DNA of 64,000 nucleotides, taken from Polyangium fumosum. GTDB taxonomy: Bacteria; Myxococcota_A; Polyangia; Polyangiales; Polyangiaceae. The stretch lies in the NCBI RefSeq assembly GCF_005144585.1, contig NZ_SSMQ01000011.1, forward strand, positions 1-64,000, written 5' to 3'. Below are positions 3,417 through 38,677 of the stretch, piece after piece. Numbering within the stretch: the stretch's first letter is position 1; each line of letters starts with the position of its first letter. Made by a program: the position numbers and the translations under genes. The notes under the pieces are model-generated. The model did not search any database and was not told the DNA's origin. It worked only from the letters and a program-made list of their open reading frames with translations.

Positions 3417-6002
3417 ATGACGTTTGTCAAGCCGCCGGGTGATGGATCGGTAAAACTCTCGGGCGAGATCGATGGGGTGGGGATCGGCGAGGTCGCGGGC
3501 GAGGTGAAAGCGTCAGATCTTAAGGCTGTCGTCGATCCAGGCGGAAAGGCGGCGGGCGCTGGCACGTTGATCGGAGCTGCGACCAAGGGAGGCTCCCTCG
3601 ATCTCGGCGCGGCGGTGACAGGCATCGCGGGCGGAACGCTCGGCGGGGTCGGTGGTAGGATTGCCGGCGCGGTGACCGGTGGTGGAGTGCCCGATCTCGG
3701 GGCGGTGGCGACCGGTATTGCAGGCGGGACCATCGGAGGCGGGGCTGCAGGGGCGGTGGGGATCGTCGCTGGTGGCGGCGTGCCTGATCTCGGGGCGATG
3801 GCGAGCGGGATGGTGACGGGGGCCATTTCGAATGCGATCGGGCAGGGGACGGGGGCGGTCGAGAATCTCGCGGGAGGGGCGGTCGGGAAGCTCGCGGGGG
3901 CGGTGACGGGTGGGTTTGCCGGGGGAGCGATCAACGCGACGCTCGGGGGGCTCATCGGGGGCGGAGGAACGCCAGGGATCGTGGCGGGGGAGTTGCCGGT
4001 CTTCGAGGAGATTGCAGTCACATCGTTCGATCCGGGGAAGATGGCGAAGGGAGTGGCTGGGAAAGCTGCTTCTGGGCTCGGCAGCGTCACGCAGCGGCTT
4101 GGCGGAAAAAACCTTGAGGTCGAGATTGGCTCGGGTGACAAGGTAGAGGTTCGGCAGTTTTCGATTCACGAGCGGCTTTCGTGTTTGTTCCAGGTCAATC
4201 TGATCGGGGTATCAGAGAACCCGAGCATCGAGTTCGACGACGTGGTCGGCCAGGCCGCGAAGTTCTCGATGGCGGCTGGGAAGCACGATCGGTTCTGGTC
4301 GGGCATCTGCAACCATTTCGAGCAGGTGCGCGTCGAGCCGTCGGGGCTCTCGACGTATCAGTTCTCGATCGTGCCCATGTTGTGGCTCCTGACGCAGCGG
4401 AAGAATTACCGGATGTTCCAGCAGATGTCGGAGCTAGATATCGTGCTCAAGCTGCTGAAGGAGTGGGAGATCGAGCCGACGCTGCGGGTCGATAAGGGGG
4501 CGTACAAGAAGCGGAAGTACCGCGTGCAGTATTCGGAGAGCGATTTCACGTTCATGAGCCGGATGCTCGAGGATGCGGGGATCACGTTCTATTTCGAGCA
4601 GGCGGGCGAGGAGACGAAGCTCGTTTTATCAGATGCTCCGCAGTCGAACGCGAAGCGAGGGACGCCGATAACGTTCGTGGATGACACGAGCATGGTGAAG
4701 AGCATCGACCTGGAGTTCGCAACGTCCGTGCGGATGGGTCAGCGGGTGCGTCCGGGCAAGTATACGTTGCGGGACCACGATTACCGGAAGCCGCCCGATT
4801 ACAAGCTGATGTCGAGTGCGTCGAAGGGGCTGAAGGTCGAGGAGAAGCTCGAGCGGTTCCAGTACGTGCCCGGGGCCTTCCTGTTCGGCACGGATTCGGG
4901 GGATGCAACGCCGAGCGCGGATGACAAGGGGAAGACGCGGACGGACGAGAAGGAAGCCGCGATACTCGCCCAGAAGCGGCTGGAAGCGAAGCGAGGAAGC
5001 GCGCGAGTGGCGACGTTCGAGACGAACGCGCATGACCTGGCGCCTGGCGTGGTGATGGGGTTGAGCGGTCACCCGCATTCGGCGCTCGCAGATGCGAAGA
5101 GTTTCCTGGTCGTGGAGTCGTCCCTGAGCGGGATGGACCGAGGGGAATGGTCGCATCATTGCGAGGTACGAGGGACTGAGGTGCCGTACCGGCCAGACTT
5201 GGTGACTCCAAGGCCAAAGGTGAACGGGGTGGAGAGCGCGACGGTGGTGGGGCCGCCCGGGGAGGAGATCCATACCGACGAATTCGGCCGGGTGCGGGTA
5301 CACTTCCACTGGGATCGCGAGAGCAAGATGGATGATAACAGCTCTTGCTGGATCCACGTGAGTCAACCGTGGGGTGGGTCGGGGTATGGCGCGACGAATT
5401 TGCCGCGAGTCGGGCAGGAAGTGTTGGTGGATTTTCTGGGAGGGGATCCGGATCGGCCGGTGATTGTGGGGCGGGTGTATACGAATCTCCAGAAGACGCC
5501 CTACAAGCTGCCAGAGAACAGGACGCAATCGGGATGGAGGAGCAACTCGACGGGTGGGGGCGGCGGCTACAACGAGATCATGTTCGAAGACGCGGCGGGG
5601 AAGGAGCTTGTCAATATTCAGGCCCAAAAGGATATGGCCAAGCTCGTCAAAAACAATGAAACTGCGACGATCAAGAACAACCGCACAAAAACGGTATGGA
5701 AGAACGATTCGTCGCTGGTTGGTGTGCAGCATTCGCTGACGATCGCGGCGTCTGGGGACGGGCCGCCGGCACCAGGACCAACGAGCGTCACGATGACACA
5801 CAAGAAGATCGTCATGACAACCGGGGAGGCGACGGTGACGATCGAGGGCCCCAAGATCACGCTCGATGCCAATACGAACATCAAGCTTGAGTCACGAGGA
5901 ACCATCGAGGTTCATGCGGCGACCGGCATCAAAATGACGGCGGACTCCGGTGACATCGTTGTCAAGGGGAATCCGCAGGTGAAGATCAATTGTAGCGAGT
6001 AA
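3417..6002 (+). CDS. vgrG: T6SS spike protein VgrG with Gly/Ala-rich N-terminal extension
   Basis: 861 residues, starting at an ATG behind a GAGGAGG ribosome site. VgrG trimers form the puncture tip of the type VI secretion tube and carry effectors. The VgrG core starts near residue 231 (KNLEVEIGSGDKVEVRQFSI) with the gp27-like region. The gp5-like OB fold is around residues 615-695 (TDEFGRVRVHFHWD, GATNLPRVGQEVLVDFLGGD, PVIVGRVYT), followed by a beta-helix tail with repeated KITLD/IKLES-type strands. Residues 1-225 are unusual: a hydrophobic Gly/Ala-rich stretch with an internal repeat built on (V/L)PDLGA-(V/M)A-G. It opens the cassette vgrG-PAAR-DUF4123-rhs-immunity. Family assignment is secure; the role of the extension is unknown. 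Confidence 0.95.
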   Translation: MTFVKPPGDGSVKLSGEIDGVGIGEVAGEVKASDLKAVVDPGGKAAGAGTLIGAATKGGSLDLGAAVTGIAGGTLGGVGGRIAGAVTGGGVPDLGAVATGIAGGTIGGGAAGAVGIVAGGGVPDLGAMASGMVTGAISNAIGQGTGAVENLAGGAVGKLAGAVTGGFAGGAINATLGGLIGGGGTPGIVAGELPVFEEIAVTSFDPGKMAKGVAGKAASGLGSVTQRLGGKNLEVEIGSGDKVEVRQFSIHERLSCLFQVNLIGVSENPSIEFDDVVGQAAKFSMAAGKHDRFWSGICNHFEQVRVEPSGLSTYQFSIVPMLWLLTQRKNYRMFQQMSELDIVLKLLKEWEIEPTLRVDKGAYKKRKYRVQYSESDFTFMSRMLEDAGITFYFEQAGEETKLVLSDAPQSNAKRGTPITFVDDTSMVKSIDLEFATSVRMGQRVRPGKYTLRDHDYRKPPDYKLMSSASKGLKVEEKLERFQYVPGAFLFGTDSGDATPSADDKGKTRTDEKEAAILAQKRLEAKRGSARVATFETNAHDLAPGVVMGLSGHPHSALADAKSFLVVESSLSGMDRGEWSHHCEVRGTEVPYRPDLVTPRPKVNGVESATVVGPPGEEIHTDEFGRVRVHFHWDRESKMDDNSSCWIHVSQPWGGSGYGATNLPRVGQEVLVDFLGGDPDRPVIVGRVYTNLQKTPYKLPENRTQSGWRSNSTGGGGGYNEIMFEDAAGKELVNIQAQKDMAKLVKNNETATIKNNRTKTVWKNDSSLVGVQHSLTIAASGDGPPAPGPTSVTMTHKKIVMTTGEATVTIEGPKITLDANTNIKLESRGTIEVHAATGIKMTADSGDIVVKGNPQVKINCSE

Positions 6003-6033
6003 CCACACGAAGCCAGGACGCGGGAGACGAAGA

Positions 6034-6369
6034 ATGCCACCTGCTGCCCGATTGGGTGACAAACACGTATGCAAACGTCATTGGGACGGCCCGATCTTGC
6101 CCGAGTGCTGCCCTAGCGTACTTATCGGTGACAAGCCGGCGGCTCGCGAGGGTGACGAGTGCGATTGCTGGTCCACGAAGGATCCAATCAAGAAGGGTGA
6201 ACCGACCGTGCTGATCGGAGACAAGCCTGCTGCGCGGAAGGGAGATCCTACAGACGGGGGTGAGGTTGTCGAGGGCTGCGCGAGTGTTCTGATCGGTTCT
6301 CCGCCCAGAGCGGCATGCATGGTTGCCGCAGCGGAGGCTGGTGCAGCGTTCGTCGATGCGGGGGCATGA
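6034..6369 (+). CDS. PAAR-type spike-tip protein
   Basis: 111 residues. PAAR proteins cap the VgrG spike with a small metal-binding cone and link effectors to it. The sequence shows two near-identical blocks, SVLIGDKPAAREGD and TVLIGDKPAARKGDPTDGG, and ends with a third SVLIG. This is the typical pattern of repeated beta-hairpins in PAAR-like proteins. Cysteines and histidines are concentrated in the first 50 residues (RLGDKHVCKRH, PECCPS, CDCW) and could hold the metal. It lies 31 bp after vgrG, and its stop overlaps the next start (ATGA), so the genes are cotranscribed. Confidence 0.85.
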   Translation: MPPAARLGDKHVCKRHWDGPILPECCPSVLIGDKPAAREGDECDCWSTKDPIKKGEPTVLIGDKPAARKGDPTDGGEVVEGCASVLIGSPPRAACMVAAAEAGAAFVDAGA

Positions 6370-6896
6370 CGATGTACGACCGTGTAGCCGATTTGCTCAT
6401 CCGTGAGGCTGCGCCGATCTTTGCCATCATGGATGGCGCGAGAGATCGGGCCATCCCGCGTGCGCTGCATGGTTCTGGTTTTCGGCATCAATCTCTTTAC
6501 GATGGCCGAGCTGCAGAGGAACTCGGATCCTTTGGTCCGTATCTCATAGAATTGGGTGGGGACGCGCAAGCGATCGAGGACTGGGTCCGCACTGGCTGGG
6601 GCAAAAGCTTCGGGGTGTATCTTGCTTGCGACCAGCCTTTCGACGTAGTGCGGCGACACCTCCGACGGTTCACCTTGGTCGAGCTGAAAAACGGGAGGAA
6701 AGCATATTTTCGATTCTACGATCCGCGAGTACTGCGCTTGTTTCTACCTCATTGTACTTACGAGGAGTGGATTCAATTTTTCGGGCCAATCGGAACCTTC
6801 TTCGCGGAGTCGGAGGACGCCAAGTCCTTGTTGCGCTTCTTTCGGGACGCCGAGGAACCAGAGCCGACGTGTCTTGCACTTGAGTCCGGTAGCTAA
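6366..6896 (+). CDS. DUF4123-like T6SS effector adaptor/chaperone
   Basis: 176 residues from the ATG that overlaps the PAAR stop; an in-frame ATG two codons later is also possible. DUF4123 proteins load effectors onto VgrG/PAAR tips. Features typical of that family are visible: an N-terminal helix followed by FAIMDGARD, the central GPYLIEL block, an HLRRFTLVEL segment, then KAYFRFYDPRVLRLFLPHC. This last stretch is the conserved FR-YDPRVL signature. Its place between PAAR and Rhs toxin genes is where such adaptors are normally found, so it probably serves the Rhs protein downstream. Confidence 0.85.
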   Translation: MTMYDRVADLLIREAAPIFAIMDGARDRAIPRALHGSGFRHQSLYDGRAAEELGSFGPYLIELGGDAQAIEDWVRTGWGKSFGVYLACDQPFDVVRRHLRRFTLVELKNGRKAYFRFYDPRVLRLFLPHCTYEEWIQFFGPIGTFFAESEDAKSLLRFFRDAEEPEPTCLALESGS

Positions 6897-6910
6897 GGAG
6901 ATTCAAGCCC

Positions 6911-9880
6911 ATGTTCCGGGTACGAGGTGACCACGCGCAGGCCATGAGCCCTGCTCTGCTGGCGACATTGCCAGAGCGGTTCCTGGCGGAACTACGCGAG
7001 AAGGGCATCACAGCCGAGCGGGACGCGAACAATGGTGCCGTCGTGATGACGGACACCCGCGGCAACAAGACGTCCTTGCTCTTCACCGAGACCGGTGCAC
7101 CCGAGGCGACCGTGTTTCCATCGGGCGCGCGCGTCAGTTTCGAGCACGACGCTCGCGGGCGACTCGCTGGTGTCGCGCTTCCCAGCGGGGAACGTATCGA
7201 GATGGGGCTCGACGAAAACGGGCGGCTCGCGTCGCTGGGTTACGCTGGACGACCCGTACATCGCTTCGAGCACGATGAGCAAGGTCGCCTGACCAGGGTG
7301 GCATTCCCGGACGAAACTACAACGACATTCGATTACGGCACAACGAGTCTCGAACGGCTGACGGATCGGACTGGGGCGACAACTTTTTACACGAGAGACG
7401 AGAAAGCTGGCCGATACGCCGTAAGGGATGCCCTTGGGCGCACGACTACTTTGTCAGCTGGTCCGCAGGGGCGGCTTCTCGAGGTCGGGTTCGCGGACGG
7501 AACCACCCAGGCTTACGAGAGAGATGCGGATGGCGTCCTCGTTTCTGTGCGGCGTCGCGACGGCAGCGTCGTGCAACACGAACGAGATCTGGAGGGCAAT
7601 TTCACCTCCCTTCGGTGGGCAGATGGAAGCCAAACATTCTTGCGTACAGAGGAGCAAGGAACGCTCGTAATTGCGAACGCGACCTCGACAATCTCAATTG
7701 TTCGCGATGCAAGCAAGCGCCCGGTACGCGAAGAGACCCCCATAGGAGCTGTGGGGTACGAATATGACGACGATGGTCGACTGACGTGCGTTCGAACTCC
7801 CTGGGGAGACGTTGTTGTATATGGGTACGACGCGGACGGTCGACTCTCTACCGTAACGGACTGGGCCAACGGAATCACCCGCATCGAATATGCGCCGGGT
7901 GGCGGCATAGAGACGATATATTACGGCGGAACACTCATCGAAAGGCGCCAATTCGCGCGCTTGGGGCTCGTATCGTCCGCGAGCGTCTACGATGCCGACG
8001 GATGCCTGGTGAGCGAACAGTATTATTCTTATGATACTTGTGACCGACTCGCTGGCATATCGGATAGATGGGGACCCGGGGTGGGAGAGGTTGACCACCG
8101 ACGACTCGTACTTGACGCGGAGGGCAGGCTCCTGGCGGAGATCGACGCGGCCTCTGAGCGGGTTCGCCTGGAATATGATTATGATGCCAAGGGCAACATC
8201 GTCTACGACAATGGGTCTACCGTACACGTCGGCTGTATGGACGAGCCGTTGTCTCACGAAGGTCGTGAGGTTATCTACGACCCTCGGGGGAACGTCATTT
8301 CTCTCCCCACGCCCAGCCGTCGCGAGTTCGAATGCAGGTGGAATGAGGACGGCACGCTTCGCGAGACCCGCGTTGGCGACACTCGCGTGGAGTATACGTA
8401 CGATGCCCTTGGGCGCCGGCTCTCCAAGTGTGTCGGGCAGTCGACTTGGCGCTACGGCTGGGCCGCCGGGCAGCTACTTTGGGAGGAGTGGCTTTCGCAT
8501 CCTGATGCGTCACCGATCCGCAGGGACTATCTCTATTTGCCGGATGGCCGACCGCTCGCATTTCGAGAGGCCGGGCGCACCTACTGGCTCCAGACGGACC
8601 CACGCGGCGCAGTCATCCGTGCGTTTGACGCGGATGGGAACGTTGTGTGGAGGGCGCGCTACGACCCCTTCGGCACGGCGAAGGTGGAGGTATCGCGGAT
8701 CCGCCAGCCGCTCCGGCTGGCAGGGCAATACGAGGACGAGGAGACAGGACTTTACTATAACCTTGCTCGATATTACTGCCCATGGACCAAGACGTACCTC
8801 TCGCTCGACCCCTGCTGGCTATGCCCTGGCGCGAGTAACTACAGCTACGCGCGGAACGACCCATACAATCGTGTGGATCCCTCGGGGGCCTTCCCTTGGG
8901 TAGTCGTCGGCGTGCTGGCGGTAGGCGCGCTGGTCGGCGGCGGCATCAGCGTCGCCACCGAGTACTTCTTCGGGCATGGTGACCTCTGGGCTGCATTCGT
9001 CGGTGGTGCAATCGAGGGATTTTTCACGACCGCGGGCGCGCTGATCGGAAGCGTCGTTCCCGGGCTCGGCACATTCTGGGGCGGCCTCATCGGTGGGGCG
9101 ATTGGCACGTTCTTCGGTACACTCGTCCAAGGCTGGATGAACGGCCAAGGTTGGTGCTGGGAATGCGCCTTCAAAGGAATGGTCACGTCGATCTTTGTTG
9201 ACCTACTTACCTTCGGGCTTGGCAAGATTCCATTCGTTGAGAAATTGCTCAAGAAGGCGGCGGATCAACTTGACGATATTCTCAAACGGTTGAATATCAA
9301 GCCGCCGAAGCCGGATGTAACCGAGCCGAAGCCGGATGTAACCGAGCCGAAGCCGGATGTAACCGAGCCGAAGCCGGATGTAACCGAGCCGAAGCCGGAT
9401 GTAACCGAGCCGAAGCCGGATGTAACCGAGCCGAAGCCGGATGTACCCGAACCCGGCGCACCTGGCTCCCCGGAGCATAAAGCTGCGCGCTGGAAAGAGT
9501 ATCAGGAGCGAGGCGGTGAGTGGTCATATGAACGGTGGAGCAAAACATATGACAACAATATGCAGCGTGCCACCAAGGCGCACGAGGTGGCAGATGCCTA
9601 CCATCAGCAATTAGGCTGGGGGGAACGCGAAGTCACCGTAAACGTCAAAGAAGGCGTCACACGGCGATTGGACATCGCAGACGAAGCCACGAAGAGAGGC
9701 GTTGAGATAAAGTCTGGAAATCAATACGCGACGCAAGACAACCTCTGGGAGATCGAAAGAGATGCCATGCTGGTCAAGCAGGGCTGGGACATTACGTGGA
9801 AGTTCGATGGGCACGCCAGCAAGCCGCTGCTAGAGGAGCTTGACAAGGCCGGGATTCCCTATACAATAGGATCACCATGA
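6911..9880 (+). CDS. rhs: Rhs/YD-repeat polymorphic toxin with a nuclease-like C-terminus
   Basis: 989 residues; AGGAG lies 10 bases before the ATG. Residues from about 60 to 660 are YD/RHS repeats (FEHDARGRL, YEYDDDGRL, VYGYDADGRL), which form a cocoon around the toxin. The core ends with the conserved YARNDPYNRVDPSGAF. Next comes a hydrophobic Gly-rich region with several possible membrane helices (about 663-790), then seven KPDVTEP repeats, then a variable domain of about 130 residues. This tip has D...GVEIKSG, compatible with a PD-(D/E)XK nuclease site, so a DNase-like toxin is plausible but unproven. At 989 residues it is short for an Rhs protein and has no N-terminal PAAR; the separate PAAR gene supplies that role. 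An immunity gene overlaps its stop. Confidence 0.9.
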   Translation: MFRVRGDHAQAMSPALLATLPERFLAELREKGITAERDANNGAVVMTDTRGNKTSLLFTETGAPEATVFPSGARVSFEHDARGRLAGVALPSGERIEMGLDENGRLASLGYAGRPVHRFEHDEQGRLTRVAFPDETTTTFDYGTTSLERLTDRTGATTFYTRDEKAGRYAVRDALGRTTTLSAGPQGRLLEVGFADGTTQAYERDADGVLVSVRRRDGSVVQHERDLEGNFTSLRWADGSQTFLRTEEQGTLVIANATSTISIVRDASKRPVREETPIGAVGYEYDDDGRLTCVRTPWGDVVVYGYDADGRLSTVTDWANGITRIEYAPGGGIETIYYGGTLIERRQFARLGLVSSASVYDADGCLVSEQYYSYDTCDRLAGISDRWGPGVGEVDHRRLVLDAEGRLLAEIDAASERVRLEYDYDAKGNIVYDNGSTVHVGCMDEPLSHEGREVIYDPRGNVISLPTPSRREFECRWNEDGTLRETRVGDTRVEYTYDALGRRLSKCVGQSTWRYGWAAGQLLWEEWLSHPDASPIRRDYLYLPDGRPLAFREAGRTYWLQTDPRGAVIRAFDADGNVVWRARYDPFGTAKVEVSRIRQPLRLAGQYEDEETGLYYNLARYYCPWTKTYLSLDPCWLCPGASNYSYARNDPYNRVDPSGAFPWVVVGVLAVGALVGGGISVATEYFFGHGDLWAAFVGGAIEGFFTTAGALIGSVVPGLGTFWGGLIGGAIGTFFGTLVQGWMNGQGWCWECAFKGMVTSIFVDLLTFGLGKIPFVEKLLKKAADQLDDILKRLNIKPPKPDVTEPKPDVTEPKPDVTEPKPDVTEPKPDVTEPKPDVTEPKPDVPEPGAPGSPEHKAARWKEYQERGGEWSYERWSKTYDNNMQRATKAHEVADAYHQQLGWGEREVTVNVKEGVTRRLDIADEATKRGVEIKSGNQYATQDNLWEIERDAMLVKQGWDITWKFDGHASKPLLEELDKAGIPYTIGSP
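9308..9454 (+). repeat. Seven in-frame 21-bp repeats encoding KPDVTEP
   Basis: Seven contiguous copies of a 21-bp unit encode KPDVTEP. The first six are essentially identical at the DNA level and the seventh ends PDVPEPG. They form a Pro-rich linker between the membrane-like region and the toxin tip of the Rhs protein. Identity at synonymous sites implies recent expansion by slippage, so copy number may differ between strains. Confidence 0.95.
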
Positions 9881-20326: not shown

Positions 20327-20947
20327 GAGGTTCGTCCCGTACACCCCTCTCGCCTTCGATCGGCAGCCGCGGTATCGTGCGCCGCGCATGCGATCCCTAG
20401 GTGTCGCGCTCGTCGTCCTTCTCGGCCTAACGACCGCCGCGCTCGCCGACGAACCTCGCGACGCGTCACCCGTGCCGCCGGATGCGCTCGAAGACGCGGC
20501 GAAGAAGGCGCGCTTCACCTCGTACGTGATCGACGGGGATCGTGCGCGCGCCGCGGGACGAGCTACAGCCGCCGCAAGAGCGTACGCCGCCGCGCTCGAC
20601 GTCCGCCACGATCCGCTGATCGCCGGCCGACTCGGCGTGATCCTCGTGCAGCTCGGGAAGCCCGTGGATGCCGCGGATCTGCTGCTCGACGCGATCCAGC
20701 GCGCGACGAACGCGACCGCGGAGGAACGTCAGGGCTTCCTGAAGGCGTACGACGCGGCCCGCGCGGAGATGACCTGGGTTGACGTCACGATCTCGCACGC
20801 GGGGACCAAGCTCACGCTCGACGGGGAACCGAGGAACCGCGAGGGGTTCTCGGCCTTGTCCATGTTCGTCGGTATCCGTCCCGCCACCCCCATCCTTCCG
20901 CTTCACCCCTCGGCCGTGCATGTATGCCCGCCGAAGGGAGGTTCGTC

Positions 20948-21304
20948 ATGGCTACGAGGACGACCAAGGCCGAGCGTCGTTGGCGGCGCATCGTGGAGAA
21001 GTGGCGACGCAGCGGCTTGCCGGCACGCGCGTTCGCGAAGCGCCATCGCATCAGCCCGGTCACCATGTATTGGTGGAGCAGCCGACTCGGCAGACAGGAT
21101 GCAGCGCAGGACTCCGAATTCGCGACCGCAGCGCCGACGTTCCTGCCCGTCGAGATCGTCGACGACGCCCCGTCCGGCTCGGTCTCCGCGAAGGCGGCCC
21201 TGGAGGTCGTTCTTCCGCGTGGCGAGGTGATTCGTGTGCCTCCTGGCGCTGACCTCTCCCAGCTCGGCCGTGTTGTCGCGGCCCTTCGCGGGGCGCTCGA
21301 ATGA
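20948..21304 (+). CDS. IS66 family accessory protein OrfA (TnpA-like)
   Basis: 118 residues from the ATG at 20948, which has GGGAGG upstream. The N-terminus is a helix-turn-helix of the IS66/IS3 OrfA type: WRRIVEKWRRSGLPARAFAKRH followed by ISPVTMYWWSSRL. The C-terminal half ends with the family pattern LEVVLPRGEVIRVPPGAD...LGRVVAALRG. Its stop overlaps the orfB start (ATGA), the usual coupling in IS66. OrfA is thought to aid transposition. The frame is intact although the element lacks its transposase. Confidence 0.85.
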   Translation: MATRTTKAERRWRRIVEKWRRSGLPARAFAKRHRISPVTMYWWSSRLGRQDAAQDSEFATAAPTFLPVEIVDDAPSGSVSAKAALEVVLPRGEVIRVPPGADLSQLGRVVAALRGALE

Positions 21305-24958: not shown

Positions 24959-25849
24959 ATGTTCCGGGACATGGCGCGCCCTACGATTCCCTCTCCGCTC
25001 ACGACCGAACTGGTCGCGCTTCGTCCCGAGGTGGCATGCATCCTGCAAAATCGTTCGGACGCCCTCGCCACCGACAGGATCCAAGAACTCATGCTGCGGG
25101 GGTTCGCGGCGCTCTCCGGCTACACGGCGCACCCTGACGGGGTGCGTCCGTGGCTGTTCGGCATCGCCAAGAACCTCCGGAGCGAGGAGAAGCGCCGGAC
25201 ACGGCGCGAGCGCGAGCACTTCTGTCCGGACCTCGGTGACGCCGAGCGCACGGCGTCGCCCGGCGCCTCTCCCGAGGAGGAAGCTCGGCGCTCCGAGGCC
25301 CGGCGCGCGCTCCTATCGGCGTTGAAGACGCTTTCGCCGGAGCAGTTCCTCGTGCTCGTGCTCGTCGACCTCGCCGAGTGCTCATGCTCGGAGACGGCCG
25401 ACCTACTCGACATCCCCCTCGGCACCGTCAAATCGAGGCTCCTCGCGGCGCGCACGAACATGATGCGCGCCCTCGGCCCAAAGGAGCAGTATCTCGGCGC
25501 CGTGCCGATCGCCTTCTTCCGGCGCCGCGCCCTCGCGCGCCGGGTGTGCGACTACGTGTACCCCCTCGGGCACGCGCTCCTCGCGTCGCTGTTCTTCGTC
25601 CTGTACCGGCCCGCGCCGCCCGAGGCTTCGGCCATCGCGATCGGCGCTGCCCGCGTCCTCGGGGCGTCGGCGGCCGACGTGGCGAGGGCCGCGGAGGTCT
25701 GGGGTTCGACGACAAACCGGCCGCCGCCGCTTTCGCTGCCGTCGACGACGGCGCCCGTGTCAAGCAGCGTGGCATCCCCCGATCCGTTCGTCGTGAAGCG
25801 CTCGGGGCAAGGGCGTCGACCGCTTCGCGGGCAGGGTTGGTCCTGGTAG
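24959..25849 (+). CDS. Sigma-70-like factor with C-terminal hydrophobic segment (module copy B)
   Basis: 296 residues. Region 2 is short and partly recognisable (TDRIQELMLRGFAALSGY, VRPWLFGIAKNLRSEEKRR). Region 4 is clear: RRALLSALKTLSPEQFLVLV, then CSCSETADLLDIPLGTVKSRLLAAR, a helix-turn-helix of ECF-type sigma factors. About 125 extra residues follow, including RALARRVCDYVYPLGHALLASLFFVLY, which could be a membrane segment, and a Pro/Ser-rich tail. Such a tail may tether or restrain the sigma factor. The TPR-PEGA gene starts 34 bp later and the lipoprotein gene follows, forming a three-gene unit. The start could also be the ATG at 24971. Confidence 0.8.
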   Translation: MFRDMARPTIPSPLTTELVALRPEVACILQNRSDALATDRIQELMLRGFAALSGYTAHPDGVRPWLFGIAKNLRSEEKRRTRREREHFCPDLGDAERTASPGASPEEEARRSEARRALLSALKTLSPEQFLVLVLVDLAECSCSETADLLDIPLGTVKSRLLAARTNMMRALGPKEQYLGAVPIAFFRRRALARRVCDYVYPLGHALLASLFFVLYRPAPPEASAIAIGAARVLGASAADVARAAEVWGSTTNRPPPLSLPSTTAPVSSSVASPDPFVVKRSGQGRRPLRGQGWSW

Positions 25850-25883
25850 ACGCCGCCATCGGGTCACGGTATCGATCGCGGGG

Positions 25884-27128
25884 ATGCGTCGTCTCGGTCT
25901 CGTTTCGGTCCTCCTCTGCGGCCTCGCGTCCCCCGCATGGGCAGAGGCCCCGATCGACACAACGGAAGAGGGCGAGGAGAGCGCGGAGGACTTGCGCTTT
26001 CGTGCCCTCGCGTCGCTGGGGGATCGCGAGCGCGCGGCGGGCCATCCCCGTGCGGCGGCGAGGGCGTACATGGCAGCGCTCGAGGTCCGCTCCGATCCGC
26101 TCATCGGCGGGCGGCTCGGCGTCCTGTTCGTGCAGCTTGGTCGGCCCGAGCTTGCTCCCGAGCTTTTGCTCGACGCGATCCATCGCGCGACCACGTCGCC
26201 GAAGGAGCGTGAAGGGTTCTTCAAGGCGCACGAGGCGGCGCGCGCGCAAGGCTCGTGGATCGAGCTGATGGTGTCCCATCCGGGCGCGCAGGTGACGCTG
26301 GACGGCGAGCCTGCGGACACGCGGGGGCACACGGCATCATGGTTTTTCGTCCGCGCGGGGGAGCACGAGGTACGCGCGAAGCTCGACGGGTACGAGGAGG
26401 CCGTCGAGAAGTTCACGGTGATCAAGGGCGAGGACCGGCCGGTGCGGATCACGCTCAAACCGCTGTCCGTGCCGCCTCCGGACGTGAAGGCGATCTATCA
26501 GCCGGAGAAGGATTCGCCGAAGATCGTGGCCCCCACGGTCGTCGTGGGTGAGCCGAAGTTCACGAAGCAGGAAGACCCGTACGCCTACGACGACAAGCCC
26601 GCGACGAACCGAGGCGACGGGGAGAAGAAAGGCGTGCGGGGCTCGATCGGAGGGGGGCCGGTCGTTGTGTTCGGCGTGGCGTCGTGGATGCCCGCGGTGG
26701 GGTTGGCTGTGGGGGGGAGCTTTCGGCCAAGTGAGTATGTATCGCTCGGGGTTGAGGGCCGGGCCGCGTGGCTAACGGCCGGCGTAGCTGAGAGGCCCAT
26801 CAACGCAATGACAGCCGGAGGTCTAGCGAGCGTTTGCGGGCACTGGCGCTGGCTTTTCGGCTGCGCGGTGGGTCACATTGGCGTGATCCACGTCGAGGGT
26901 TTGCCCACTGCGTACGCCTCGCCCCCGCTCACGTTTACCAAGCCGGGGTTGGGTGTGCGCGCGGGCGCAAAGCTGAACATGACGCAATCATTCGCTATCC
27001 GCGCAAGCGTGGATGTTTTGGCTTTGGCTACGGGCACACAGATTGTCGCGAGGCAGACTGTAATTGTCGACCATCCGCCGGTCCTAATCGGAGCGCAACT
27101 TGCGGGCGAGTGGGAGTTTGGGCAATGA
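25884..27128 (+). CDS. Secreted TPR-PEGA protein with beta-rich C-terminus (module copy B)
   Basis: 414 residues. Signal peptide MRRLGLVSVLLCGLASPAWA; TPR-like helices at about 40-115 (RERAAGHPRAAARAYMAALE, DPLIGGRLGVLFVQLGRPEL, LLLDAIHRATTSP); PEGA domain at about 125-195 (GAQVTLDGEPADTRG, AGEHEVRAKLDGYEEAVEKF). A Lys/Pro/Asp-rich linker leads to about 160 residues of alternating beta strands (GPVVVFGVASWMPAVGLAVG, VSLGVEGRAAWLTAG) ending in WEFGQ. Such an end resembles an outer-membrane barrel or its relatives. Its stop overlaps the lipoprotein start. Paralogues are at 20388 (broken) and 36062. Confidence 0.8.
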   Translation: MRRLGLVSVLLCGLASPAWAEAPIDTTEEGEESAEDLRFRALASLGDRERAAGHPRAAARAYMAALEVRSDPLIGGRLGVLFVQLGRPELAPELLLDAIHRATTSPKEREGFFKAHEAARAQGSWIELMVSHPGAQVTLDGEPADTRGHTASWFFVRAGEHEVRAKLDGYEEAVEKFTVIKGEDRPVRITLKPLSVPPPDVKAIYQPEKDSPKIVAPTVVVGEPKFTKQEDPYAYDDKPATNRGDGEKKGVRGSIGGGPVVVFGVASWMPAVGLAVGGSFRPSEYVSLGVEGRAAWLTAGVAERPINAMTAGGLASVCGHWRWLFGCAVGHIGVIHVEGLPTAYASPPLTFTKPGLGVRAGAKLNMTQSFAIRASVDVLALATGTQIVARQTVIVDHPPVLIGAQLAGEWEFGQ

Positions 27129-28288
27129 TCAAAATGGCAATCGCTTCGAGCGGTATCGCGCTAGTAGTAGCATGTTCGGCACCCTCATCGGTGGGCATTC
27201 TGGAGTGCGATCCCAACGCAATCGTCGTTACTCCGGAATGCATACCAGACGCCGGCGCCGACGCCGACGCGAGCGACGACGCGCCCGACGCGGAGATCCA
27301 AGCCGAATGCACTGGTCGCTGCGTCCCCGAGCCGGACGATATCTCGGCAGGCGACTGGCCTCGCACGCCGCTGCTCCTCTACGTCGGCCCCAAGGGCCAG
27401 GTGCCGACGAGCTGCCCGGATACGACGCCGAATGATGGTGTCGACAAGGACGTCTTGTTCATGAAGTATCGTCGCTTCATGCACATCGACGCGCCGCCCG
27501 CGACGTGCCAATGCACCTGCCCTCCATCCGAAGGGACGTGCACCGAGCTTCCCGAGACGATCGAAATCCGCGCGGGCACCTGCGCGGAGAACGGAGCCCC
27601 CGCCCTCCCTTTCGGCGGACCCGTCGGCTGGGACGGCTCGTGCACGAGCGCGAACGCCCTGCCGGCGGGGGCTGATTGCGGCGGCGAGCCTTGCGCGCAG
27701 TCCGTGTGGTCCTCGCCGCTCCCGGGGCCGACGAGCGAGGCGTGCCCGGTAACGACCGTCCCGGCCGCGGTCGCGACGGCGCCGGCTACGTGGCTCACCG
27801 AAGGCATCGCATGCGAGGCCAAGGAACTCGAAGGCGCGTGTGATCCCTCGACGTACCGGTGCGCGCGGGATCTGCCGCTCCCGTGGCTCCTGTGCGTGTC
27901 TCGTTCCGGTGAGCATCAATGCCCCGGGAACTACAAGTACGCGCGGTTCGTGATGTACGGCGAGGAGCCGCTCGATGAGCGCGGTTGCAGGGCGTGCGAA
28001 TGCGGCGGGGAGCCCGAGGGGAGCGCCTGCCTGGCAACGCTGAGGCTTTACAGCGATGCGACGTGTGGAGACGAGGCTGACAAGGTCGGAGTGTCATCGT
28101 TCGGCGACCAGTGCGTGAACGTGCACCCTCCCGGGCGCGCGCTCGGCAGCAAGGCGATCACGAACCTCGCGTACACGCCGGGCACGTGCTCTGCAACCGG
28201 AGGCGAACCCACGGGCAACGCGAGGGGCGCGCCCGGAGAAGCCGTGACGTTCTGCTGCCTTGAACCGTTCTACCTGCCACCCAGGTAG
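27125..28288 (+). CDS. Cys-rich lipoprotein (module copy B)
   Basis: 387 residues, starting with an ATG that overlaps the TPR-PEGA stop. The signal ends in the lipobox LVVACS. An Asp/Ala-rich linker (DAGADADASDDAPDAE) precedes a Cys-rich body with TCQCTCPPSEGTCTELPETI then EIRAGTC, and GGPVGWDGSCTSANALPAG. It ends with EAVTFCCLEP. The copy C lipoprotein (34848-36029) aligns along its length: RCKCTEATGACTTLPETIEV, GGPDGWDGSCTNANALTAG and EQAVTFCCRP. It probably works at the cell surface with the TPR-PEGA protein. Confidence 0.8.
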   Translation: MIKMAIASSGIALVVACSAPSSVGILECDPNAIVVTPECIPDAGADADASDDAPDAEIQAECTGRCVPEPDDISAGDWPRTPLLLYVGPKGQVPTSCPDTTPNDGVDKDVLFMKYRRFMHIDAPPATCQCTCPPSEGTCTELPETIEIRAGTCAENGAPALPFGGPVGWDGSCTSANALPAGADCGGEPCAQSVWSSPLPGPTSEACPVTTVPAAVATAPATWLTEGIACEAKELEGACDPSTYRCARDLPLPWLLCVSRSGEHQCPGNYKYARFVMYGEEPLDERGCRACECGGEPEGSACLATLRLYSDATCGDEADKVGVSSFGDQCVNVHPPGRALGSKAITNLAYTPGTCSATGGEPTGNARGAPGEAVTFCCLEPFYLPPR

Positions 28289-32815: not shown

Positions 32816-32951
32816 GGGGTCCGAAGTGGCACCAACACGCGCCAACGGTGCCGATCCGTCGTCACCAGGACGTGGATCCAGCGGGTTACGCCGGGTCAGG
32901 GGTGCTAGAACTGTTCTCGGGGGGTGAATCGACCGGGCTTTGCCCGGGCGA

Positions 32952-32976
32952 GAGGGGGACGCGAGGCGTCCCCCTC
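32952..32976. terminator. 11-bp stem hairpin, possible terminator
   Basis: GAGGGGGACGC pairs perfectly with GCGTCCCCCTC across a 3-base loop. It lies just downstream of the tldD-like gene on the minus strand. There is no T-run, as is usual in GC-rich genomes. It may act with the palindrome at 32990-33031. Confidence 0.45.
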
Positions 32977-32989
32977 GGGACGAAAGAAG

Positions 32990-33031
32990 CCTAGAACATC
33001 GAGCGGTTCTTGAACCGATCGATGTTCTAGG
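32990..33031. terminator. 42-bp imperfect palindrome over the tldD-like stop codon
   Basis: CCTAGAACATCGA on the left pairs with TCGATGTTCTAGG on the right, with an inner GGTTC/GAACC stem. The TAG stop of the minus-strand tldD-like gene (33027-33029) lies inside the right arm. It could end transcription or stabilise the 3' end of the mRNA. Confidence 0.55.
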
Positions 33032-34406
33032 AGGCAATGAAGAGCGATTCGACCCTCATCACGGGGCAACCGACGCCGACCGGTACGCTTTGGTTGTGCT
33101 TGCCAGACGTCCAGATGCCATCCGAGAGAAAGACGTCGGAGCCGAGCATCGTCACGTTGCCGAGCATTTCGATCACATTGCCAAGGATGTTCTGCGGCGC
33201 GAGCGGCGCGGTCACCGTGCCGTCTTCGATGAGGTAGCTCTCCGTCATGCCGAAGACGAAGTCACCGTTCGACATGTCTATCTGCCCGCCGCCGAGTTTC
33301 ATCACCAGGATACCACGCTTCACGCTCCGAAGAATTTCCTCCGGCTCGTGGGGACCCGGGAGAACCAACGTATTGGTGCAGCGGGGCATGGGGGTCGTGC
33401 CAAAGCTCTCCCTCCTCCCGTTTCCCGTCGTCGAATGACCGAGGAGCCGCGCCGACCGACGATCATGCAGGTGGCCGCACACCCGGCCTTCTTCGATCAA
33501 CACGGTCTGGTGAGGGACGATGCCTTCATCGTCGACGTTGAGGCTGCCGCGCGAGCCTGGGACGGATGCATCGTCGATCAAGGTAAAGAAATCGTTGGCG
33601 ATCTGCCGTCCCATGAGACCCGCGAGCCCGCTCGTTCCTGCGAGTATGTAATCCGCTTCCAGCGATTGAGCCACGGCCTGCTGGAAGATGATTCCGCAGT
33701 CTGCGGATCCCCAGACGACCACGACGTCGCCCGTGGGGCCCTGTCGGCAATCCAGAAGTTGGACGGCTTGGCGCGCGGCTTCCCGGCCGTGCCATTCAGG
33801 GGGCCTGTCGCGAAAATAGCCCAACCCGACGCGCCCTCCTCCCCCGCTGGATCCTTCCCGCCACGATCTGTGATCCTCGGCTCGCACACGCACGCCGACG
33901 CGGAAGAGTGGCTGCACATCGTGCGCAAAGATGCCGTCGGACGTGGCGACCAGGATCTCACGCACCTCTTCCGAGAAGGTGCTCTCCGCAGCGATGACGC
34001 GAGGGTCGAAGCTGAGGGCGGCGGACGCCGCACGCTCACACAGGAGCCGCTTTTCGCGAAGAGGTGCGTCGAGGGAAGCGGCCTCCACCTCGTATCGACG
34101 CGGAATGGGGGGAGACTCGAGGGCGAACGCTCGCTTGCCGCCCCCTCCGACGGCGATTTGTGATGCGGTTTTGGCCGCGCGCTCCAGCGCCTTGAACGAG
34201 AGGTCCTCACTGGACGCGAAGCCTGTCACGCCCTGCCGTTGGACACGCACCCCGACGCCCATGGATACACCACGCGAAACGGCCTTCAGCGTGTCGTCGC
34301 TGAAGGAAAATCCGCCGCCCGCTCGATATTCGAAGAACAGCTCCGCATAGTCGCCGCCGTTCTCCAGCGCGATATCCAGCAACCGTCGACACAACGCCCG
34401 GTCCAT
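33027..34406 (-). CDS. TldD/PmbA-family protein with all zinc ligands replaced
   Basis: 459 residues from the ATG at 34406; an in-frame ATG at 34460 is an alternative without a ribosome site. TldD is a zinc protease that works with TldE/PmbA on modified peptides. The family is clear from TPTGNGRRES-type sequence (HSTTGNGRRESFGTTPMPRC), MKLGGGQIDMSNGDFVFGMT and QSVPVGVGCPVMRVESL. The active-site motif HEAVGHGLE of TldD reads QQAVAQSLE here, so both His ligands and the catalytic Glu are lost. The distal Cys ligand in VCGKEGQS is TSGKHNQS here. I read these changes directly from the DNA. It should be an inactive, perhaps regulatory, homologue. No tldE-like gene is beside it. Confidence 0.85.
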   Translation of the reverse strand: MDRALCRRLLDIALENGGDYAELFFEYRAGGGFSFSDDTLKAVSRGVSMGVGVRVQRQGVTGFASSEDLSFKALERAAKTASQIAVGGGGKRAFALESPPIPRRYEVEAASLDAPLREKRLLCERAASAALSFDPRVIAAESTFSEEVREILVATSDGIFAHDVQPLFRVGVRVRAEDHRSWREGSSGGGGRVGLGYFRDRPPEWHGREAARQAVQLLDCRQGPTGDVVVVWGSADCGIIFQQAVAQSLEADYILAGTSGLAGLMGRQIANDFFTLIDDASVPGSRGSLNVDDEGIVPHQTVLIEEGRVCGHLHDRRSARLLGHSTTGNGRRESFGTTPMPRCTNTLVLPGPHEPEEILRSVKRGILVMKLGGGQIDMSNGDFVFGMTESYLIEDGTVTAPLAPQNILGNVIEMLGNVTMLGSDVFLSDGIWTSGKHNQSVPVGVGCPVMRVESLFIAS

Positions 34407-34579
34407 TGGACTCTCGCCCGAGGGCCCGAAGGGCGCCTTGTCGTCGCAACTCTCCGTCATCGTACAACCAGTGTACCCGTACGTAGATCGCGCGAGCAAG
34501 CGCGAAGGACGCGGGAGCAGGGGCGGGCGAGCGCGCGCGTTTGCGGGGTGCCGTCGGGCGAGGGACAGGGGAGGGGCGG

Positions 34580-34847: not shown

Positions 34848-36029
34848 TCAAGTATCCGGCGGCCGACAGCAGAACGTCACCGCCTGCTCCGGGTCTTCCT
34901 TCACATCGCCGCTCGGCTCTCCACCGCTCGGCTCGCATGCGCCGGGTAGGTATTCGGGCGGCGTGATCTCCTTGCTGCCGATCGCGAGGCCCGCGAATGG
35001 AACGTTCGAGCATTGCTCGACGACCGACGAGATCCCGTCGTCCGAGAGCAGCTTCGAACACGCGCCATCCTCGAAGGTGCGCACGCGCGCGAGGCATGCC
35101 CCGCCGACGGCCGCGCCGCATTCACACGCTGTGCATTCGCGCCCTTCCAGCCAGCCCGGCTTCTCGTGCGTCACCTCGTACACGACGAACCGATCGCCGT
35201 TCCACCCCACGGGGCAGACGTGCTCCCCCCCTCGCTTGATGCACGTCTGAAACCCGTCGGGGAGGCGGCGGATCGAGGGGAGACAAGACGCACTCGGCAC
35301 GTTGCACGTCGGGATCAGGCATCCGATCGCCGCTGTCGCCCACGTCGGCGCGGGGAGCCCGTATTGCGTGACGGGGATCGGCTCCGCGAACGACGCGCAC
35401 GTTTCGCCCGTGGGAGCGCCGAGCGGCGAGGCGGCGATCGACTGCGCGCACAAGGCCCCGCCGCACATGGCGCCCGCGGTCAGCGCGTTTGCGTTCGTGC
35501 AAGACCCGTCCCACCCGTCGGGTCCGCCGAACGGCGTGCTCGTGCCCGCGGCCCCGCATGTCGCGGCGCGGACCTCGATCGTCTCGGGGAGCGTCGTGCA
35601 CGCGCCCGTTGCTTCCGTGCATTTGCAGCGGTCGCAGTTCGCAGGGGGCGCGGAGACGTCCGCACGCCCGACGAAGAGCGGGAGCGCGGTTTCTCCATCG
35701 GTACCGAGCGCGGGGCAGATCTGCGGCGCCTCGGCCGCGGGCCCATGCCAGAGCGCGCGGAGGTCCCATTCGTCAGGCGGGTGGGGGATGCAGGGGCCAG
35801 AGCATCCGATGGCGGAGGCGGTTCCATCGATCGCGGCGTCGGTGCCCGCATCAGGAGGGACGCATGTACCGGTCTCTTCGATGCACACCCAGCCGCCGAA
35901 GCACGGCTCCTTCACATCATTCGTGCACGGAATATATGTTGGGTCAGAACCGCAGCCCTCCACACTCAGCGAGGCGGCTGCTGCAAGCAGAGCGCATAGA
36001 ACAGACAGGAAATACAACTTGGATCGCAT
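34848..36029 (-). CDS. Cys-rich lipoprotein (module copy C)
   Basis: 393 residues from the ATG at 36029 (MRSKLYFLSVLCALLAAAAS), with lipobox VEGC; an ATG three codons earlier is also possible. The body is Cys-rich and homologous to the copy B lipoprotein, sharing LPETIEVRA, GGPDGWDGSCTNANAL, CTACECG, GSKEITP-Y-PG and AVTFCCRP. A Pro/Asp linker (CVPPDAGTDAAIDG) follows the first Cys cluster. It is the last gene of the minus-strand unit sigma, SDG protein, TPR-PEGA, lipoprotein. Probably exposed on the outer membrane. Confidence 0.82.
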   Translation of the reverse strand: MRSKLYFLSVLCALLAAAASLSVEGCGSDPTYIPCTNDVKEPCFGGWVCIEETGTCVPPDAGTDAAIDGTASAIGCSGPCIPHPPDEWDLRALWHGPAAEAPQICPALGTDGETALPLFVGRADVSAPPANCDRCKCTEATGACTTLPETIEVRAATCGAAGTSTPFGGPDGWDGSCTNANALTAGAMCGGALCAQSIAASPLGAPTGETCASFAEPIPVTQYGLPAPTWATAAIGCLIPTCNVPSASCLPSIRRLPDGFQTCIKRGGEHVCPVGWNGDRFVVYEVTHEKPGWLEGRECTACECGAAVGGACLARVRTFEDGACSKLLSDDGISSVVEQCSNVPFAGLAIGSKEITPPEYLPGACEPSGGEPSGDVKEDPEQAVTFCCRPPDT

Positions 36030-36061
36030 AGGGAGCACGGTACTCCGTCGACAAACCTATG

Positions 36062-37246
36062 TCAACGCATGGCGGCCATGATGCTGAGCCCTGCCATGAT
36101 CTGGTTGCCGCTCCAACCCGCGGGCCCCCCTCCTGCGACGAGCGGGTAGTCATCAATCAACACGACTGCGTCCAGCAAGATGCGCACGTTCAGCGGCCCC
36201 AGGGGGATCGCTGCCATGGCACCCGCACCAAACCCCAGGAAGCGGTGCCACTCTGAAAAAGCAGGGGTGCGCGGGGTGATTCTGGACCGATGGAGTGCGC
36301 CCCCGGCTGCGAGCAAGCAGCCGGAGAACCAGCGCACTGTGCCGCAAGCGCCGGGCCATGCGCCGATCAGGGCCCCGCGAACGGCGTTCCCTTCGTCCCG
36401 GGGTGAGAATGCGCCCCGTAGGTCGAGACGCCAAGAAAAGACCTCACCCAGCGGCCAGTCCGAAGATGCGACAACGCCGAAGGATGGTAGGGGGGAGACT
36501 GGACCATAGAGGACCGTCGCTCCGAAAGATGGGGACCATCGGCGCGCAGGTGATCTCGGGGCCGGTGGCTTCGAACTCGGCGCGGGACACGGAGAACTCG
36601 GTGCCGGGCTCGCCGGCTTCGACGTCGCGGGCGCCTCGGGAGCCGGCGGCGGGCTCGGCGCGGGGAGGGGCGTCAACACCAGCGAGACCCGCACGCGTCC
36701 TCCTTTGGGCGCGTCGATCGTCTCGATGGCATCCTGAAACCCCCCGAGCGTCGCGCGCACCTCGTGCCGCCCCGGCGACGTGAACACGTAAAACTCGCCC
36801 GCAGTGGACGACGCGCGCTCCAGCTCGCCATCGATCAGCACATCGGCCCCGAGGTGGCTCAGCGCGACGTCGACGCGGCAGACCTGCGGGCGCGCGCGTT
36901 CGTAGGCGTCCTGAATCCTGCGCCGCTCGGCGGGCGGGACGTCGTGCCCATCGATGATGGCGCGGAGCAGATAACTCACGGCTTCGGCCGTCGCGCCCCC
37001 TTCGAGGGCGACGAGCCCGAGGCGGCCCACGATCGCGGGATCGTCACGAATACGAAGGGCTTCGCTGTACGCCTGGACGGCCGCGGAGGTTCGCCCCGCG
37101 GCGCGGGCGCGATCGCCCTCGCGCACGAGCTCGGCGAACCGCGCCGCTTGATCGATGCGGCTCGGAGGGCCCGGGGGCTCGTCGGCGCGCGACACGCCGC
37201 CGACGAGCACGAGGACCAGGACGAACACGAACCGCGCGAGGGTCAT
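36062..37246 (-). CDS. Secreted TPR-PEGA protein (module copy C)
   Basis: 394 residues from the ATG at 37246, which gives a proper signal peptide (MTLARFVFVLVLVLVGGVSR). TPR-like helices follow (DRARAAGRTSAAVQAYSEAL, DPAIVGRLGLVALEGGA), then a PEGA domain (GADVLIDGELERAS, SPGRHEVRATLGGFQDAIET), a long Pro/Ala linker, and a C-terminal beta-rich part (FGATVLYGPVSPLPSFGVVA, RLDLRGAFS, AMAAIPLGPLNVRILLDAVV). It is homologous to the proteins at 25884 and 20388. The lipoprotein gene starts 32 bp downstream. Confidence 0.82.
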   Translation of the reverse strand: MTLARFVFVLVLVLVGGVSRADEPPGPPSRIDQAARFAELVREGDRARAAGRTSAAVQAYSEALRIRDDPAIVGRLGLVALEGGATAEAVSYLLRAIIDGHDVPPAERRRIQDAYERARPQVCRVDVALSHLGADVLIDGELERASSTAGEFYVFTSPGRHEVRATLGGFQDAIETIDAPKGGRVRVSLVLTPLPAPSPPPAPEAPATSKPASPAPSSPCPAPSSKPPAPRSPARRWSPSFGATVLYGPVSPLPSFGVVASSDWPLGEVFSWRLDLRGAFSPRDEGNAVRGALIGAWPGACGTVRWFSGCLLAAGGALHRSRITPRTPAFSEWHRFLGFGAGAMAAIPLGPLNVRILLDAVVLIDDYPLVAGGGPAGWSGNQIMAGLSIMAAMR

Positions 37247-37293
37247 CGAGCGAGAGCGTATCCAGGACGAACCCTCGCGGGGACTTCGAAAGC

Positions 37294-37533
37294 TCAACGG
37301 CGGGCGCGTAGGGGTTGCGTCGCGTTGAACGCGAGCCGATGGAGCGTGTCCCAGACTTGCCTTGCCTCCTTGCTCGTGAGTTCGTATCCGACGAACTGCT
37401 TGCGCCCGGCCAAAGCCCCGGGCGGTAGGCTCTCCGCGCTGACATAGAGATGGCCGTCGCTCCCGATGGCGAATTCGGTCACGAGCTCGGGGGCCTCGGT
37501 CGTATCGTCGATGGTCTGGGCTTCGTTCGACAT
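37294..37533 (-). CDS. Small SDG-motif protein (module copy C)
   Basis: 79 residues; AAGGTGA precedes the ATG at 37533. Sequence FAIGSDGHLYVS then AGRKQFVGYELTSKEARQVW and HRLAFNAT matches each half of the 116-residue protein at 29349. It lies between the sigma-like gene (97 bp upstream) and the TPR-PEGA gene (47 bp downstream), so it belongs to the unit. Probably cytoplasmic; it could act on the sigma factor, but nothing in the sequence proves this. Confidence 0.7.
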   Translation of the reverse strand: MSNEAQTIDDTTEAPELVTEFAIGSDGHLYVSAESLPPGALAGRKQFVGYELTSKEARQVWDTLHRLAFNATQPLRARR

Positions 37534-37630
37534 GGCATCACCTTGCAGGCGCGATGAAGTGCAGGAGCCCGCGCGCCGTCGGGATTCCCGCCCCGGGCGC
37601 CAGAAAGGGCCCGGGGAAATCCACGGCGTG

Positions 37631-38677
37631 TTACTCGCCCCTCGTGTGCGTGAACGCAGGCCGTTGCAGGCGGAGAGCGCGGCGCGCCTCGTCGCTCAAC
37701 GTCTCGGGGCGAGGCGCGCGCGTGGAGGGCGTCGAGGTCGGAGCGCTCGTCGGCAGCGTCGGGGGCGGCGTCGCGGAGGCATGCGCGCTCTCGTCTGGCT
37801 CGCCGAAATCGACGCGCGGGGTCGGCACGAAGAGACCGCCGCGGGCGAGCGCGGGGCGCTCGGGAGACCCGAGGAAGAGGAAGACCAGGGCCGCCACGCA
37901 CGCAGGCCCGAGCAGGAGGAGCACGACCAGGGCGGCGAGGTTCGACGTGGTCGTGGGGTTCGGCGTGAACCAGGGAGCTTTCGGCACGGGCGGGGGAGGC
38001 GGCGGAGGTGGGGGCGGCGGGCCGCCGGGCCCGCCTCCGCTGAACGAGGGGAGACGACCGTCCACGGACAGGATCGCGGCCATCGCGGCGCGGATCTCCG
38101 GATCGAACACGATCGCGCCGGGAAGGAGCACAACGCCGCGCCGCTCCTCGGGCGCGTCGTTCGCGCGGAGGCGCTTGGAGAGCTGCACGCAGGCCCGCCG
38201 AATGCGGCTGTGTACCGTGTTCACGGGCATGCCGAACAGCGCGGCGATCTCGGGCTCCGTGTACCCGAGGACCTTGTTTGCAAGGACCATACGGCGTGTC
38301 GCCTCGTCGCGGAGCTCTTCGAGCGCTTCGATCAACGCGAGCGCGACGGCCGCTTGTTCTTCGAGGTTTGGCCGGTCGGACGCGATGTCGTCGATCGCGA
38401 CGGCGCTTCGCCGGGCCGCGTTCCGGGCCTCACGGCGCCTGTGGTTCTGGGCGACGCGCACGGCGAGATCGAAGAGCGCGCGCCGGGCCTCGGTGGGGCT
38501 CGTCGGGATGCTCTCGGGGGCCTCGGTGACGGCCTGCCAGACCTCTTGTTCCGCATCCGGGGTGCTGACGGCCGGGACACGGAGCCGACGGAACCAGTGG
38601 GGGAGCTGGGCGGCGTAGGCCTGGTAGAGGCTGGCGAAGGAACCGAGAGGGGGCGCGGCGGGTTCGGGGGTCGTCAC
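37631..38677 (-). CDS. Sigma-70-like factor with C-terminal transmembrane helix (module copy C)
   Basis: 348 residues from a GTG at 38677. Region 2 is at about 15-85 (SLYQAYAAQLPHWFRRLRVP, DAEQEVWQAVTE, VRVAQNHRRREARNAARR) and region 4 at about 110-165 (EELRDEATRRMVLANKVLGY, TEPEIAALFGMPVNTVHSRI). After a poly-Pro run of eleven residues comes one clear membrane helix (LAALVVLLLLGPACVAALVF), then a Pro/Thr-rich outer tail. The sigma domains would stay in the cytoplasm and be held at the membrane. This points to release or signalling through the membrane rather than a separate anti-sigma factor, which is not encoded nearby. Confidence 0.82.
   Translation of the reverse strand: MTTPEPAAPPLGSFASLYQAYAAQLPHWFRRLRVPAVSTPDAEQEVWQAVTEAPESIPTSPTEARRALFDLAVRVAQNHRRREARNAARRSAVAIDDIASDRPNLEEQAAVALALIEALEELRDEATRRMVLANKVLGYTEPEIAALFGMPVNTVHSRIRRACVQLSKRLRANDAPEERRGVVLLPGAIVFDPEIRAAMAAILSVDGRLPSFSGGGPGGPPPPPPPPPPPVPKAPWFTPNPTTTSNLAALVVLLLLGPACVAALVFLFLGSPERPALARGGLFVPTPRVDFGEPDESAHASATPPPTLPTSAPTSTPSTRAPRPETLSDEARRALRLQRPAFTHTRGE

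Follow-up and report, generated by a model that had tools for sequence, protein, structure and literature searches.

A putative TldD-derived pseudo-protease under purifying selection in two Polyangium species

The pseudo-tldD locus

The window analyzed here is a 64,000-nucleotide stretch of the Polyangium fumosum genome (contig NZ_SSMQ01000011.1, positions 1 to 64,000), and its minus strand carries a gene of the TldD/PmbA family in which the codons for the metal-binding and catalytic residues are replaced (hereafter pseudo-tldD). An earlier sequence-only reading had placed this gene at 33027–34406. The reading frame is indeed present and ends at 33027 in the ORF reading of the window, but the start at 34406 is probably not the right one, judging by the alignment with the intact TldD of the same genome (own TldD) and with the orthologue from Polyangium sp. 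y55x31 (genome G003, locus L040:10136-11566), which was used to place the start. Translation probably begins at ATG 34460, 18 codons further upstream, because MTESCDDKAPFGPSGES matches MTRSAAYRAPFAPGGDT of the own TldD and the orthologue has a similar start. The features of the locus are:

33027..34460, minus strand: pseudo-tldD coding sequence, 477 aa plus stop (ORF, start by alignment, Pfam domains)
33651..33695, minus strand: codons for GIIFQQAVAQSLEAD, the former active-site helix, with HEAVGH changed to QQAVAQ (translation, alignment)
33090..33122, minus strand: codons for DGIWTSGKHNQ, the clamp, with Ser as the C454 equivalent and the K456 equivalent retained (translation, alignment)
34461..34553, minus strand: upstream stretch partly conserved in the orthologue, with TACGGGTACACTG directly before the ATG; possible promoter (alignment)
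32916..33030, minus strand: 115-bp three-hairpin interspersed repeat at the 3' end of pseudo-tldD; the first hairpin contains the stop codon

A sigma-70 promoter scan of the upstream stretch found none, and a −10-like TACACT was spotted there by eye only. The repeat (fold z −8.4, first hairpin bounded by CTAG) has at least about 24 further near-full copies in the window genome, with others in G002–G005 and none in G001 among the matches listed; it had no Rfam match, was not seen 3' of the orthologue, and nothing indicates that it serves pseudo-tldD. Two facing modules flank the locus (24959–28288, plus strand; 34848–38677, minus strand), each composed of genes for a sigma-factor-like, a TPR and a cysteine-rich lipoprotein-like protein. 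Their TPR proteins are 41% and their lipoprotein-like proteins 43% identical, the sigma-like proteins have no mutual BLAST match, and DNA resembling parts of the 34848–38677 module occurs in five other genomes of the genus. Further away, the ORF at 20924–21304 appears to begin like an IS66-type helper protein. PADLOC gave no match that would mark pseudo-tldD as a defence gene.

Descent from TldD

Judged from its sequence, the product of pseudo-tldD is a pseudo-protease derived from TldD; it is no ordinary TldE, the inactive partner. Pfam PmbA_TldD domains 1–3 span its whole length (49.7, 69.5, and 186.7 bits), and the NCBIfam models gave 323 bits for TldD vs. 66 for PmbA, each under its own cut-off; with the TldD equivalog cut-off at 513 bits and the own intact TldD unscored as a control, this is a weak test. 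The best solved relatives were E. coli TldD chains (the Pfam, NCBIfam and solved-structure searches were run with the shorter 459-aa form). Identity is 56–57% to the own TldD vs. 24–28% to five TldE rows of the alignment, and the TldD-type brace and clamp align without loss, with R362 and K456 (E. coli TldD numbering, as throughout) retained. The five TldE rows have G-L-(C/A/V) at the motif positions and a gap at the clamp; in the tree they split off with an SH-aLRT of 100. The pseudo-tldD product and its orthologue form a pair (support 100, stem branch 1.09) within the TldDs of their own taxonomic family, although the attachment point is uncertain; a duplication inside the genus, with the pair as sister to the Polyangium TldDs, was neither rejected (p-AU 0.414) nor shown.

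The sequence-only reading had proposed an alignment with TldD and TldE/PmbA to decide which subunit the protein comes from. Clamp, brace, bit scores, tree and TM-scores (see below) all point to TldD, and an ordinary TldE/PmbA member carrying the same substitutions was rejected given the G-L-x motif and missing clamp of the TldE rows. Pseudo-TldD does resemble TldE/PmbA in lacking HExxxH and in its overall fold (TMq 0.75–0.76 to E. coli TldE). Since the copy sits among the TldDs of its own taxonomic family, its loss is separate from, and later than, that in TldE. With TldD (MEROPS M103; E. coli 5NJ5) it shares the family, the three Pfam domains, the predicted fold, the brace and the clamp; it differs in the metal and catalytic residues, in three residues lining the S2 pocket and in six extra cysteines.

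The AlphaFold2 model of pseudo-TldD had a pLDDT of 90.6; its input consisted of 24 aligned window and locus proteins, and as these were mostly intact TldDs, a TldD-like model was favoured. Foldseek returned TMq values of 0.91–0.92 (2.0 Å) to six TldD chains among the matches listed, peptide-bound E263A and H262A mutants included, and 0.72–0.77 to ten TldE/PmbA chains among the matches listed. A control model of intact TldD reached an equal mean pLDDT with much the same pattern: the brace blocks were alike (83/78 in pseudo-TldD vs. 80/78), while the clamp blocks were slightly lower in pseudo-TldD (84/76 vs. 91/81). No conclusion was drawn from these values on a loosening of the clamp by metal loss.

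Lost metal site and remodelled helix

In E. coli TldD, H262, H267 and C454 are the ligands of the zinc/iron site and E263 is the catalytic Glu, while E270, D272, K456 and R362 are said to hold the clamp, according to passages of the structure paper (PMC5810440). In the alignment with E. coli TldD (PDB 5nj5 chain A), positions H262, E263, H267 and C454 correspond to Q, Q, Q and S in pseudo-TldD, which bears out the earlier claim that both His ligands and the catalytic Glu had become Gln and the distal Cys had become Ser; the quoted motifs TGNGRRES, GGGQIDMSNG, QSVPVGVG and QQAVAQSLE were likewise all found in the translation. The tether residues E270, D272, R362 and K456 are all retained.

The extent of change was assessed at 82 near-invariant positions, each ≥ 97% constant across 115 H-E-H-C rows, among them E. 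coli. Of the 82 positions, 23 are altered in both pseudo copies and three more in one only, compared with a median of 0 and a maximum of 5 changes in the intact rows (n = 115). Within helix 255–276, 12 of 16 such positions are altered vs. 11 of 66 elsewhere (p 1.6e-5), and G258, A264, E270 and D272 are unchanged in both copies; the N-terminal domain has 1/12 changes, the brace 0/4 and the clamp 1/8 (C454 itself). When 61 close TldDs were taken as the reference, 38 of 150 positions were altered in the pseudo copies vs. three at most in any intact row. From these counts, remodelling was far stronger in the catalytic helix than in the shell. Three S2-lining residues are altered (F273Y, V396I and I398M), the orthologue has Ile at V463 (S1'), and the FNRK stretch that follows the helix has changed as well.

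The replaced residues could also mark a re-purposed site, with another reaction or cofactor served by the Gln/Gln/Gln/Ser set or by newly gained cysteines. Both species carry the same replacements, and the helix is frozen: ADCGIIFQQAVAQSLEADY is unchanged between them, and the following 21 residues differ at nine. Although the Cys ligand is lost, six cysteines are gained over the own TldD (C5, C141, C238, C255, C328, and C361), all of them common to both species. Cys is absent from all 115 intact rows in the columns of C141, C238, C255 and C361, and at C361 (E. coli 363) all 115 have Met. C255 directly precedes the helix. In addition, a review mentions N-deacetylases in its title, which are members of the family with a different chemistry. 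Against a re-purposed site, three Gln and one Ser would make a poor metal site, and C255 is the sole Cys, His, Asp or Glu gained over the own TldD within aligned positions 250–280, so that we regard this reading as rather improbable.

Selection on pseudo-tldD

Over its 477 codons, the orthologue in Polyangium sp. y55x31 shares 88% identity with pseudo-tldD, has no indel and carries the same Q, Q, Q, S. Between the two copies dS is 0.218 and dN 0.061 (dN/dS 0.28), compared with 0.187 and 0.015 (ratio 0.08) for the intact tldD pair and 0.150 and 0.033 (ratio 0.22) for the second tldD pair of the same two genomes. Pseudo-tldD is thus under purifying selection between the two species (Fisher p 5e-12 from rounded counts; Fisher tests here take sites as independent), and the constraint on it is weaker than on intact tldD (0.28 vs. 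0.08). The pair shows 131 substitutions and no stop codon, vs. about 312 substitutions and, under equal mutation rates, about nine stops expected without selection at that dS. The four substitutions are beyond chance, given that a second genome retains them under this constraint and that nearly all TldD-type sequences surveyed (see below) have H-E-H-C. Catalytic residues are lost in a coding sequence that is still under purifying selection, as in a selected pseudoenzyme, and the earlier suggestion of selection for a non-catalytic role stands as far as a pseudo-protease under such selection is concerned.

A decaying duplicate, i.e., a young pseudogene, would account for the low GC3 of pseudo-tldD (0.761 in both copies vs. 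0.91–0.94 in intact paralogues), its presence in two of the six genomes of the genus, its stem branch of 1.09 and a constraint weaker than on intact tldD. We nevertheless judge decay highly improbable, because the dN/dS stays at 0.28 and the 477 codons show neither indel nor stop in two species at a dS of 0.22; the retained tether residues speak against it as well. The low GC3 and the patchy occurrence point to an accessory gene, whose expression is perhaps weak.

Distribution and genomic setting

The survey drew on the best 30 of 59 relatives, 30 from 235 genomes of the phylum, 60 chosen stretches and a few further loci. Matches covering < 380 query positions were removed (which drops most TldE), leaving 143 sequences, and 121 after repeat removal (114 H-E-H-C, 5 TldE and 2 Q-Q-Q-S rows). 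Within this scope, the phylum matches fetched plus E. coli, H-E-H-C is retained in 114 of 116 distinct TldD-type sequences, the two exceptions being pseudo-TldD and its orthologue. A search of 183 genomes from the order gave matches with an E-value of 1e-165 or lower in 45 of them, and a copy with > 58% identity only in the window genome and in Polyangium sp. y55x31. The DNA pattern for QQAVAQxLE was found in three of 108 family genomes: the window genome (33657–33683 in the window), Polyangium sp. y55x31 and G014, where it lies on another contig (C139) than the TldD of that genome (C322). A scan of the genome collection returned the known orthologue alone, and as its patterns were N-terminal, it says little about wider spread. 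A literature search joining the words TldD and pseudoenzyme found no paper, and passages of three papers that describe TldD/E family members with other substrates and within biosynthetic clusters (PMC10885120, PMC12424672, PMC4351081) contain no TldD without HExxxH.

In Polyangium sp. y55x31 the gene lies within a 2.4-kb block that is missing from G005 at the same place. This variable slot lies beside an ABC-2 transporter gene (L040 10114–12503, with equivalents in L173–L176). Neither the window genome (C33) nor G004 has anything in it, and both also lack the adjoining glyoxalase-like gene; in G001 and G002 the slot is filled with other DNA of about 2.5 kb. Genome G004, where pseudo-tldD is absent, holds the DNA found upstream of the gene in the window close to the DNA found upstream of it in Polyangium sp. 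y55x31. Taken together, these upstream pieces may point to a single ancestral accessory locus for pseudo-tldD.

Partners and possible function

The sequence-only reading had advised a genome search for an active partner. PF01523 is represented five times in the window genome: by an intact TldD (C99), a TldE (C55), a second TldD/TldE pair (C15) and pseudo-TldD. PF19289 matches number five in Polyangium sp. y55x31 and four each in G001, G002, G004 and G005. By these counts, pseudo-TldD brings no extra TldE and replaces none, and the idea of a pseudoenzyme standing in place of a TldE partner is not supported; pseudo-TldD is a fifth, additional member.

The most likely reading, which we hold with about even confidence, is that a TldD paralogue lost proteolysis and was then retained as a non-cutting subunit that pairs with TldE and/or holds peptides. 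Pseudo-TldD is predicted to fold like TldD, and it would join the cell's TldE in the usual hollow shell, where its beta-strand cleft may still take unfolded peptide N-termini and leave them uncut. It might then compete for TldE and so lower TldD/E activity, and/or act as a peptide-binding trap or chaperone. Passages of PMC5810440 describe the E. coli heterodimer as favoured over homodimers, and TldD/E with E263A TldD as retaining an uncut hexapeptide through hydrogen bonds via backbone atoms, although the tight binding is credited by its authors mainly to the chelation of zinc by the Asp of the peptide; since pseudo-TldD should have no zinc, a peptide trap may be weak. The E263A and H262A mutants of E. 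coli TldD (5NJC, 5NJF) are also inactive TldDs that assemble with TldE and hold peptide, but they keep the zinc ion, whereas pseudo-TldD is without any ligand. Further points against the non-cutting subunit are that H267A was described as misfolded in E. coli (PMC5810440), that S2-lining residues, the S1' residue of the orthologue and the FNRK stretch are altered, and that low GC3, patchy occurrence and weaker constraint mark the gene as accessory.

Alternatively, pairing with TldE could have been lost, with pseudo-TldD acting alone, either as a homodimer or as a monomer, on a ligand of its own. The gene is solitary: it has other neighbours in each of the two genomes, and no tldE adjoins it. 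No operon partner or gene cluster was seen, and no additional TldE-type gene goes with it. However, canonical tldD and tldE also lie on different contigs (C99, C55) in the window genome, and the solitude of pseudo-tldD therefore says little. E. coli TldD and TldE can each homodimerise by AUC, but the TldD homodimer was too unstable for a native gel or purification in the account given in passages of PMC5810440. On balance, a stand-alone role seems unlikely. Less probable still, and also less so than a re-purposed site, is a surrogate shell subunit that partners intact TldD instead of TldE and alters substrate choice. The authors of the structure assume that TldE arose from a TldD copy through loss of the centre (PMC5810440), and pseudo-TldD shows the same first step; yet two TldE-type subunits are already present in the genome, and clamp and brace, absent from TldE, are retained in pseudo-TldD.

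We tentatively put forward, at less than even confidence, that pseudo-tldD may mark a recent event in which the TldD/E family gave rise, independently and for a second time, to a non-catalytic subunit; catalysis would have been lost and the peptide cleft kept, leaving a selected peptide receptor or a dominant-negative partner that tunes TldD/E. If true, the proposal that TldE descends from a dead TldD becomes testable on a young case: a dead TldD with clamp, brace and cleft, beside intact TldD and TldE, would allow a direct test of what a pre-TldE subunit is able to do. Annotating pseudo-tldD as 'metallopeptidase TldD' would be wrong.

The second TldD/TldE pair of the window genome lies at 4721–7689 of locus L006 (contig C15). 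Its TldD2 has an intact HEAIGH site and an N-terminus (MKRRQFIEMG) that looks Tat-like by eye, and the five remaining genomes of the genus each have a TldD2-like match.
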